22,186 bases of DNA from a virus: the IMG/VR virus record IMGVR_UViG_3300034110_000280, positions 1 to 22,186 of that record. One strand, given 5' to 3'. Below the pieces are notes generated by a model. It searched no databases. It was not told the DNA's origin and worked only from the letters and a program-made list of their open reading frames with translations. Numbering within the stretch: the first letter of the stretch is position 1; every line of letters starts with the position of its first letter. Shown piece by piece: positions 3,045-6,661 of the stretch. The position numbers and the translations under genes are program-made.

Positions 3045-4544
3045 TTACATATCAGCTAAAGCTATAGCTTTAACACTTGGAGGAGGTGCGGCAAATGCAC
3101 CTAGTTTTGGTACTGTATATACTTTTACAGTATTGAGGTAATTAAATGCTGTACCTACAGCATCAACAAAATCATCATGTCTAGTTCTAGTAGATTTAGT
3201 AACACCGTCGAAGTTTTCACACTCTCTGTGAAAGTATTCTAATGTTTTTCTATCCCAACCAGACTCAACTATAAATACTAACCCATTCTGAACTGCTGTA
3301 AAGAAAGGTTCTGATTTCTTAATTTTACTAGCTGTTGAACTAGATATATCTTTCTTGGGTATTAATCCTTCAGACATAATGAATTTTGATAAATATTCAA
3401 ATGCTGCTGCACCCCCTGCACCGTTGTCCTTTGGTATAACAATATGGACATCACTTCCATCTCGTTTACCTTGTGCTACGATACTGGCATCTCTATCGCC
3501 TGTACGCTTACGGTAATAATCACCGCTCATTAGATAGTAGTAACCATCTTTAGATTTAGCGACAAGAACACTTGCTGTAGCGTCACAACCGACCGTAGCG
3601 GGTGTATCATCAGCAGTTGATGCTAAGTCGTATCCACGAGCTAACATGCAACCTAGAGGTACTTGAGAGGCTTTCTTGAGGTCTTCACGCTTATAGAATA
3701 TACCAGTATCATCGGTACTAGCCCAACAACCTTTCAAAAGCTGCTTACGCTTACCTTCTGGCATACTATCAAGCTTCTTACGATAGGAAGCATCTAATGT
3801 ATCGAGTGCTACGTTATCGTCTAACGTTGCAGGAATGTATGTATATGTTTCAGGATCTTTATCCCAAGCATCTTTTAATTCTTGTTCATCCCAAGACGTA
3901 TACAATACACCTTCTACTACAACGAAATATCTACGTTTACCAGATAATTCTTTTATAGGAAAGTCTTCTTCATCCAGATAAGGTTTAACCCATTCGTAAA
4001 TGAAGCTGTTTGGATCGGGGTTGAGTGTACATCGAATAGATTTTGGAATACCAGACATCGAACGGTTACGAGAACGTATAATGTCGAATTGATAAGGGGA
4101 ACGGTATTGAGCTTCTTCAAAGAAGGCACAGTTAATTTCTGTACCATACCAAGCGTCAGCGTCTTTATCTGTGCTTAAATACGAGAACGTAGTCCTTGCA
4201 CCAGATGGGAATGTGATTGTTTTTTGTTGTTCGTTTATCTTTGCTTGACCGAGGAATCTACCGTTTGTGTCAACAAGATATGGCATGTACATACGTTTTG
4301 CATCAACCCAAAGACCTTTATCAATCTCTGTTGATGTTGTACGAAAGAATACGCTGAAATAAAGAGGATCGTGAATACCTAATAAATTTACGCAAAGCGC
4401 ACCGTAGGTTTTACCGCCACCAGCTCCACCTCCGAAGAATACTATACTTTCTTTGGCATTGGCAAATTCTAATTGCTTAGGTTGAAGCTTAATCTCAGGT
4501 ATATTCTGAACACTCTTTTTCCTAAGATTATGTTGTTTAGTCAT
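3045..4544 (-). CDS. terL: Terminase large subunit (packaging ATPase and nuclease)
   Basis: A 499-residue protein with both terminase domains. In the ATPase half the Walker A loop is GGGAGGGKT at 38-46, the Walker B strand is CAFFEEA at 139-145 with Glu143 and Glu144, and the coupling motif is TLNPDP at 173-178. The RNase H-like nuclease half shows GYDLAST with Asp306, an Asp-Asn turn at 373-374 (PKDNGAGG) and the final acidic cluster RHDDFVDAVG with Asp457, Asp458 and Asp461. The enzyme pumps DNA into the procapsid through the portal and cuts the concatemer. The start is preceded by AAAGGAGAATTA. The length is normal and no key residue appears to be lost. The packaging strategy cannot be told from this sequence alone. 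Confidence 0.94.
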   Translation of the reverse strand: MTKQHNLRKKSVQNIPEIKLQPKQLEFANAKESIVFFGGGAGGGKTYGALCVNLLGIHDPLYFSVFFRTTSTEIDKGLWVDAKRMYMPYLVDTNGRFLGQAKINEQQKTITFPSGARTTFSYLSTDKDADAWYGTEINCAFFEEAQYRSPYQFDIIRSRNRSMSGIPKSIRCTLNPDPNSFIYEWVKPYLDEEDFPIKELSGKRRYFVVVEGVLYTSWDEQELKDAWDKDPETYTYIPATLDDNVALDTLDASYRKKLDSMPEGKRKQLLKGCWASTDDTGIFYKREDLKKASQVPLGCMLARGYDLASTADDTPATVGCDATASVLVAKSKDGYYYLMSGDYYRKRTGDRDASIVAQGKRDGSDVHIVIPKDNGAGGAAAFEYLSKFIMSEGLIPKKDISSSTASKIKKSEPFFTAVQNGLVFIVESGWDRKTLEYFHRECENFDGVTKSTRTRHDDFVDAVGTAFNYLNTVKVYTVPKLGAFAAPPPSVKAIALADM

Positions 4545-6082: not shown

Positions 6083-6116
6083 GATGAAAATCCTAAGAGT
6101 TGGTTGGTAAAATGAA

Positions 6117-6144
6117 AGAATAGCATGACATTATGATTTGTCAA
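6117..6144 (-). promoter_or_regulatory. Sigma-70-type promoter for the zinc-protein gene
   Basis: On the minus strand: TTGACA (6144-6139), 16-base spacer, TATTCT (6122-6117). It lies between the 3' end of the CAU tRNA and the zinc-protein start, so it gives that gene transcription independent of the tRNA unit. Confidence 0.68.
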
Positions 6145-6164
6145 TAGCTAAATGAAAATAAATT

Positions 6165-6242
6165 TGGTAGACCCACGAGGATTTGAACCTACGTACCTTT
6201 CCCTTATGAGGGGACTGCTCATACCAAATGAGCTTTGAGTCT
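6165..6242 (-). tRNA. tRNA with CAU anticodon (Met or lysidine-type Ile)
   Basis: A full cloverleaf can be drawn on the minus strand: acceptor AGACTCA with TGGGTCT (7 bp, one G-U), D stem GCTC/GAGC, anticodon loop CTCATAA giving CAU, T loop TTCAAAT, discriminator A and an encoded CCA. Total length is 78. Two flaws are visible: the outermost anticodon-stem pair is G-A, and the T stem pairs only as CG-(T)-AGG with CCT-CG, that is with one bulged T. Met and Ile(CAU) cannot be told apart here without checking identity elements. It may be functional or slightly decayed. Confidence 0.75.
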
Positions 6243-6256
6243 AGTATTAAGAAATA

Positions 6257-6273
6257 CCCCTCTATTCGAGGGG
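6257..6273 (-). other. GC-rich hairpin just upstream of the CAU tRNA
   Basis: CCCCTC (6257-6262) and GAGGGG (6268-6273) pair around a five-base loop. It lies 14 bases before the 5' end of the tRNA and lacks a U-run on the minus strand, so a processing signal or spacer hairpin is more likely than a terminator. A further stem, CAATGTAG with CTACGATTG (6283-6290 and 6303-6311, one bulge), lies directly next to it. Confidence 0.45.
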
Positions 6274-6321
6274 ATATTATTACAATGTAGCTAGAAAACA
6301 AACTACGATTGCTCAGACTTG

Positions 6322-6421
6322 TAATGAGTCGTGTTCGTGGATACCACTAAACATACTTAGCTAACTACGAGAACCCCCATAGTTATCCATTTGCAACTGG
6401 TGCTTTGTATTCAACTCATTA
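6322..6421 (-). ncRNA. Structured RNA candidate with a four-way-junction layout
   Basis: An outer 10-bp stem joins 6412-6421 with 6322-6331 (one G-U wobble). Inside it, an 8-bp stem pairs TAACTACG (6362-6369) with CATAGTTA (6378-6385), one pair being a wobble on the minus strand. A 4-bp stem, GTGG/CCAC, lies at 6337-6347, and a weak CCA/TGG stem at about 6388-6401. The shape is tRNA-like in outline, but I find no convincing anticodon arm or T loop, so I do not call a tRNA. The outer stem shares bases 6416-6421 with the right arm of the neighbouring 18-bp repeat, so the two structures cannot both form. Confidence 0.35.
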
Positions 6422-6535
6422 GTTTGATGTTTACGGTGGAGTCGAACCACGAATATCTACCCAAGATTTAAGATGGAATTGAACCATCAAACTGTATGCC
6501 TACAGTGCGCCATGCTATAAACATCAAACTAATGA
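6416..6535. repeat. 18-bp perfect inverted repeat enclosing the tRNA-like element
   Basis: TCATTAGTTTGATGTTTA at 6416-6433 is the exact reverse complement of 6518-6535, with 84 bases between. It extends the acceptor stem of the tRNA-like element well beyond seven pairs. The nine-base core CATCAAACT occurs a second time at 6485-6493, so the left and inner copies compete for the same partner. Confidence 0.85.
6428..6523 (-). tRNA. Aberrant type II tRNA-like element, possibly tRNA-Leu (CAA)
   Basis: On the minus strand: acceptor TGTTTAT (6523-6517) with GTAAACA (6434-6428); a perfect 5-bp arm GATGG/CCATC with loop TTCAATT (6472-6488), which read as an anticodon loop gives CAA (Leu); a variable arm ATCT/AGAT (6455-6467); and a T arm GTGG/CCAC with the canonical loop TTCGACT (6436-6450). 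Problems: the stretch between acceptor and anticodon arm is 28 bases and folds as ACTGT/ACAGT (6491-6506) rather than a normal D arm; base 37 would be T; and no CCA is encoded. The loop TTCAATT also fits a T loop, so this may instead be a fused remnant of two tRNAs. It sits inside an 18-bp inverted repeat. Confidence 0.42.
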
Positions 6536-6541
6536 ACTAAA

Positions 6542-6577
6542 ATAAGTGGGGATAAACATTTCTGTTACACCCCTTAT
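6542..6577 (-). other. Leader hairpin with GAAA tetraloop before the tRNA region
   Basis: On the minus strand ATAAGGGG pairs with CCCC-A-CTTAT with one bulged A. Inside it, after a 3x3 internal loop, AACA pairs with TGTT around a GAAA loop. It lies about 40 bases after the -10 box of the promoter at 6615-6642, so it would be part of the 5' end of the tRNA-region transcript. It may be a stability or processing element. Confidence 0.45.
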
Positions 6578-6614
6578 CTTTCCAGTGGAAAAACCTTACA
6601 TCCTCACAAGACAA

Positions 6615-6642
6615 ATAATACCACAGATTTATATATTGTCAA
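6615..6642 (-). promoter_or_regulatory. Sigma-70-type promoter for the tRNA region
   Basis: On the minus strand: TTGACA (6642-6637), 16-base spacer, TATTAT (6620-6615). It lies immediately after the stop of the 125-residue gene and has only structured non-coding DNA downstream for about 370 bases, so its main products should be tRNA and structured RNA. Confidence 0.75.
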
Positions 6643-6661
6643 GTATTATTTTAAAATATTT

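Follow-up and report, generated by a model that had tools for sequence, protein, structure and literature searches.

On the minus strand of a 22-kb viral sequence, positions 6410 to 6541 form a structured RNA which is well supported as a tRNA-derived or tRNA-like molecule. Its acceptor stem is extended to at least 18 bp, a T arm is stacked beside this stem, a D-arm-like segment follows the 5' arm, and a second T-loop-type hairpin (UUCAAYU) takes the place of the anticodon arm. Our overall reading is that this stretch is an RNA gene of a tailed phage, placed in a slot whose content of RNA genes varies, and that it acts as a stable, non-decoding tRNA mimic, a decoy or ligand for a host factor working on tRNAs. 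We give this complete reading roughly even chances.

Locus and folding of the element

The window, i.e. the whole stretch of 22,186 nucleotides that was analysed, is an IMG/VR virus record whose terminase large subunit gene shows 65.6% DNA identity to that of Rheinheimera phage Barba31A (Barbavirus). Its left 8 kb carries minus-strand genes for the portal, the terminase and a replication-initiation-like protein. The RNA region is housed in a 580-bp gap flanked by a 77-aa zinc-finger-like ORF (6082-5849) and a 125-aa ORF (7039-6662), and since these bounding genes lie on the minus strand, the relevant transcript is that of the minus strand. The first-pass annotation had seen no gene in this region, and indeed the overlapping ORFs are all of 56 aa or less and none is plausible. 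The consensus promoter that it described is confirmed too; it lies on the minus strand and has 11 of 12 consensus matches. In the window the slot contains, in this order, two hairpins, the inverted-repeat element, an insert, a 25-nt motif with a terminator-like hairpin and a tRNA-Met gene. The features are as follows, in the direction of transcription:

6642-6615, minus strand: promoter P1 of the RNA slot, TTGACA-16-TATTAT; matches the consensus, with a TTGACA-16 nt promoter at the same place in the related contigs L004, L005 and L011 and a TTGACA also in L021
6573-6548, minus strand: GAAA-capped hairpin, GGGG...AACA-GAAA-TGTT...CCCC; its fold is not above chance (z -1.36)
6535-6518, minus strand: 5' arm of the 18-bp extended acceptor-like stem, from inverted repeat, fold and covariation
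6517-6491, minus strand: D-arm-like segment (TAGCATGGCGCA) and hairpin ACTGTA-GGCA-TACAGT, from sequence and fold; the D-like segment aligns with that of the relatives
6488-6472, minus strand: hairpin A, GATGG-TTCAATT-CCATC, of T-loop type at the anticodon-arm position, from alignment, fold and two pairs changed on both sides
6471-6451, minus strand: linker or variable-arm-like region with TTGGGTAGA, from sequence, alignment and fold
6450-6436, minus strand: hairpin B, the T arm, GTGG-TTCGACT-CCAC, adjoining the outer stem, from the fold; its counterpart in the relatives is matched as T arm by the Rfam tRNA model
6433-6416, minus strand: 3' arm of the 18-bp extended acceptor-like stem, from inverted repeat, fold and covariation
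6327-6322: alternative partner TAATGA (plus strand) of the first-pass annotation, discarded as a rival fold (pairing probability about 0.001; the relatives lack it)
6319-6295, minus strand: 25-nt motif AGTCTGAGCAATCGTAGTTTGTTTT, unchanged in phage contigs that are otherwise unrelated; part of a hairpin whose 3' strand varies and still pairs
6273-6257, minus strand: terminator-like hairpin 3' of the 25-nt motif
6242-6168, minus strand: tRNA-Met (CAU), an ordinary phage tRNA gene of the same array (Rfam RF00005, 43.4 bits; about 87% identity to a T5-like phage tRNA-Met)

The element folds at -45 kcal/mol with a z-score of -5.82, which none of 200 shuffled sequences matched, and the homologous elements of L004 and L011 reach z-scores of -3.15 and -4.14, respectively. 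The 18-bp inverted repeat noted earlier is exact (6416-6433/6518-6535), and no repeat of 18 bp with a spacer of up to 150 nt occurred in any of 200 shuffled windows. The tRNA-like element proposed inside the repeat was recovered too, in the form of hairpins with tRNA-like loops. Outside the inverted repeat, the region has mostly no more structure than shuffled sequence. The string of the GAAA-capped hairpin exists as described, but the segment around it (6540-6608) folds like chance, with 24 of 200 shuffles as good. In the distal segment 6270-6415, too, the fold is no better than that of shuffled sequence (z -1.32; 25 of 200 shuffles as good). What is supported of the earlier description is a promoter followed by a structured RNA that is tRNA-like and non-coding.

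Homologous elements and the RNA-gene slot

Four contigs were found to have the 77-aa gene in common with the window, namely L004, L005, L011/L022 (one contig) and L021; L011 had first been reached via the next gene, which is terminase-small-subunit-like. In all of them the locus has the same layout, with a TTGACA promoter followed by RNA genes, a U-rich stretch and the next TTGACA promoter. The content of the slot varies. It holds only a canonical tRNA-Lys(UUU) in L021 and only the inverted-repeat element, behind its own promoter, in L011. In L004 and L005 it consists of a tRNA-Lys-like gene, the inverted-repeat element, the 25-nt motif with a terminator-like hairpin, a tRNA-Met and a further stem-closed element. 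A homologous element is therefore found at the same place in three related phages (L004, L005 and L011), and in the window the GAAA-capped hairpin, in which no tRNA identity is recognisable, holds the position of the relatives' tRNA-Lys or tRNA-Lys-like gene. Judged from these sequences, two promoters enclose a slot whose RNA genes vary among five phages, the window included. The elements of L004 and L005 are 99.3% identical while the neighbouring genes share 81-84%, which could reflect a recent exchange.

No exact DNA relatives of the window element were present in viral_contigs, blastn against phages returned chance-level matches only, tRNA-Met excepted, and alignment of the terminase-small-subunit-like protein against bacterial genomes yielded no relative. 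In Barba31A the inverted repeat is absent at the corresponding place.

A structure-blind MAFFT alignment joins the window element to its relatives via the outer stem, the D-like segment, hairpin A (aligned as GGTTCAAYTCC followed by TTAA) and the 3' arm. Covariation, which the first-pass annotation had named as a check, was found in this alignment. Six of the 18 pairs of the outer stem and two pairs of hairpin A are changed on both sides; this total of eight was reached in none of 500 shuffles, and slid partners gave 0-1, in a set of four elements of which three are close and in which most double changes fall on the window's own branch. Among L004, L005 and L011 only, there are two further double changes, in an inner 9-bp helix and in hairpin A, a number that 50 of 500 shuffles of these three sequences also reach. 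The differences between L004/L005 and L011 leave helices 3 to 5 intact. As the relatives keep the shape through paired mutations, the element is probably a real, selected phage RNA, and the long stem in particular is probably a selected RNA structure. Part of the covariation could be mimicked by template-switch correction, in which the arms of an inverted repeat are made complementary to each other at the DNA level (arm to arm) without selection on the RNA.

Other components of the slot were also inspected. In the tRNA-Lys(UUU)-like gene of L004 (2436-2520) and L005 (2432-2516), a hairpin of about 16 nt interrupts the T loop and the D loop lacks GG. The acceptor and anticodon stems of this gene stay paired despite changes between the two copies and relative to the canonical gene of L021; possibly it is a displayed Lys anticodon stem-loop. 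The further element of L004 (2820-2926), also present in L005, has a closing stem of about 20 bp, a fold with z -4.44 and no match in Rfam. Its identity between both contigs is 100%, despite differences in the tRNA-Met beside it. Immediately ahead of the RNA slot, L004 (1499-2404) encodes a DUF7275/DUF7277 protein that appears nucleotidyltransferase-like by eye. L021 (1923-2825) does so as well according to ORF and sequence reading, unscanned, and the window has no such gene. Four phage contexts that are otherwise unrelated (window, L004, L005, L006/L010, L008) share the 25-nt motif AGTCTGAGCAATCGTAGTTTGTTTT letter for letter, once per record and always with a terminator-like hairpin next to it on the 3' side; its 20-nt core was not found in 84,980 bacterial and archaeal genomes. 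Since a promoter-like site ends just before the motif in L006, the motif may be a small regulatory RNA.

tRNA likeness and alternative readings

The Rfam tRNA model scores the L004 element at 30.2 bits (gathering threshold 29) and the L011 element at 26.2 bits; in both, the acceptor and T arm fit and an insert of 66-75 nt replaces the anticodon arm. This fit makes the element tRNA-like and identifies the long stem as an extended acceptor stem. In the window element itself (6410-6541), ARAGORN calls no tRNA and the Rfam model gives only 13.8 bits, in another register, so that a 7-bp acceptor stem with D, anticodon and T arms is not recognised by a tRNA model. An anticodon loop with U33 and a purine at position 37 was not found either. 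The loop of hairpin A reads UUCAAUU in the window and UUCAACU in the relatives and would place a pyrimidine at position 37, where purines are the rule in tRNAs and pyrimidines are rare. At the same time, this loop is a perfect T loop (UUCAAYU), and its core GGTTCAACTCC is identical to the tRNA-Lys T arm of L021. We therefore prefer to read hairpin A as a T loop over an anticodon loop CAA (leucine), a choice that sequence alone does not settle.

If hairpin A were instead the anticodon arm (UU-CAA-YU), the element would be a functional, highly divergent class II tRNA-Leu(CAA) with the long variable arm next to it, and the long stem would be no more than leader and trailer paired with each other and cut off in processing. 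The position of hairpin A in all four elements, the invariant CAA triplet and the long region after the hairpin, as in leucine tRNAs, agree with this. Moreover, ARAGORN calls a tRNA-Leu(CAA) once about 9 nt of the D region are removed. This call was dropped as evidence because it is unspecific, with 53 of 60 controls in which the D and V regions were shuffled and the hairpins kept also giving a hit. Apart from U or C at position 37 and the T-loop match described above, the extra 9-bp helix that parts the arm of hairpin A from the D arm in L004, L005 and L011 and the lack of an encoded CCA also argue against a leucine tRNA, which we consider unlikely. The element might also be a relic, i.e. a remnant of tRNA genes that are decaying or have been rearranged within a tRNA array, without a function of its own. 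This would suit its poor score as a tRNA and a slot where the tRNA-Lys of L021 is ordinary and the tRNA-Lys-like gene of L004 and L005 is altered. However, a relic would not retain an 18-bp stem through six double changes or keep helices 3 to 5 intact across the differences between L004/L005 and L011, nor would it retain a promoter and be the sole occupant of the slot as in L011, and we regard this origin as somewhat less probable still than a leucine tRNA.

An improbable alternative is that the element is a processing or insulating structure, such as an RNase III site, that serves the downstream tRNA-Met. RNase III substrates typically have long perfect stems like that of the element, and it precedes tRNA-Met in the window, L004 and L005. 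Yet the solitary element of L011 has no tRNA after it, which argues against a mere processing aid for tRNA-Met; in addition, a terminator-like hairpin lies between element and tRNA-Met, and conserved T arms would not be needed for such a role. Very improbable is the RNA switch with mutually exclusive folds that the first-pass annotation had put forward on the basis of alternative complementary segments. The strings TAATGA and CATCAAACT do exist together with their rival partners, but the proposed exclusivity is not borne out. In the predicted ensemble of the 449-nt transcript, the pairs of the 18-bp stem have probabilities of 0.98-1.00, whereas in the same thermodynamic ensemble pairing of TAATGA with 6322-6327 has a probability of at most 0.001 and costs 4.5 kcal/mol when forced, and pairing of CATCAAACT with its inner copy has a probability of 0 and costs 14.7 kcal/mol. 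The TAATGA rival could open no more than the lowest six base pairs of the stem and is therefore no exclusive fold, and the stretch with 6322-6327 is missing from relatives that retain the element. Two conserved alternative folds of comparable stability, as expected of a riboswitch, were thus not found in the element. Transient folds during transcription would be compatible with the thermodynamic calculation, but nothing in the data calls for them.

Comparison with known RNAs and possible role

The element shares with tRNAs (RF00005) and phage tRNA genes the acceptor helix with a T arm on its 3' side, the D-arm-like segment and the position in a tRNA locus. It differs from them by the acceptor-like stem of at least 18 bp, the T-loop-type hairpin in place of the anticodon arm, the missing CCA and the failure of ARAGORN to detect it, and the relatives add an extra helix. 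The tRNA-like domain of tmRNA likewise keeps the acceptor and T arm while its anticodon arm is replaced; ARAGORN and Rfam report no tmRNA, that is, no tRNA-like domain with a tag reading frame. With the YrlA-type bacterial Y RNA (RF02553) the element has in common a long terminal stem bearing a tRNA-like module, but in YrlA the order of the arms inside the stem is different (T arm, acceptor hairpin, D arm). RF02553 gave no match up to E 10 in the window (6100-6660) or up to E 5 in L004. As for the partner proteins, Ro60/TROVE (PF05731) was absent from the records of L004, L005 and L008, and DUF7788 (PF25043) from these and the window, the records possibly being fragments. Membership of the window element in the Y RNAs was rejected accordingly, and the family serves for comparison only. 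A circularly permuted tRNA in the window was rejected as well, as an ARAGORN rescan after rotation of the ends gave no hit while the same test finds permuted cores in L008.

Y-RNA-like units were encountered in other phages. L008, reached via the common 25-nt motif, has a cluster of five stem-closed units (3900-4430), two or three of which hold circularly permuted tRNA cores that ARAGORN detects after rotation only (0 of 3 shuffles); one unit scores 40.1 bits with RF02553. Our literature search turned up no report of permuted tRNA genes in phages. Xanthomonas phage Olaya (200-800) contains, between two genes, at least three unannotated YrlA-like RNAs with complete permuted tRNA cores, and Xanthomonas phage units score 50.0 and 39.6 bits with RF02553, below the gathering threshold of 69. 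Unannotated Y-RNA-like clusters also lie at 1440-2000 in the Vibrio phages MS02 (L016), PhiImVa-1 (L017) and BUCT194 (L019), directly before a DUF2828/DUF7788 gene that was Pfam-tested in MS02 and is annotated in BUCT194; part of one cluster is annotated as a suppressor tRNA. By architecture, the units of L008 and of the Xanthomonas and Vibrio phages are Y-RNA-like. Several units of L008 (3904-4032) and of MS02 and BUCT194 (1440-1570) match the Dictyostelium Class I RNA model RF01414 with up to 31.8 bits, below the gathering threshold of 41.5, and the matches run through the terminal stem, CUUACAGCAA and the 3' CUG. Some units of these three phages display hairpins resembling the anticodon stem-loop of tRNA-Lys (CTTTTAA) or tRNA-Ser (CTGCTAA).

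For the window element we return to the tRNA mimic. P1 would transcribe it, RNase P at the acceptor/T-arm helix and/or RNase III in the long stem would free it from the precursor, and it would then persist as a stable tRNA mimic unable to decode normally. Its most likely role would be that of a decoy or ligand for a host factor acting on tRNAs, for example a tRNA-targeting defence nuclease or a tRNA-modifying enzyme. In general, the use of tRNAs by phages against tRNA-targeting or tRNA-cleaving defences is established (PMC10264068, PMC11555353). We infer the decoy role in general terms, as nothing ties the element to a particular enzyme and no known nuclease-target anticodon stem-loop is recognisable in it. 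More tentatively, the element may found a small family of phage non-coding RNAs, i.e. tRNA mimics in which the acceptor stem is extended and a T-loop hairpin stands for the anticodon arm, and which would be independent genes in the RNA-gene slot and decoys against tRNA-directed host factors.

Annotation of phage tRNA arrays usually stops at what tRNA finders can recognise. In the present case, a covarying, conserved tRNA-like RNA that the finders miss lies in a slot whose tRNAs and other small RNAs are exchanged among related phages. Should this RNA be a decoy, it would offer a direct and simple test of whether phages defend themselves by tRNA-mimic RNAs and not only by resistant tRNAs.
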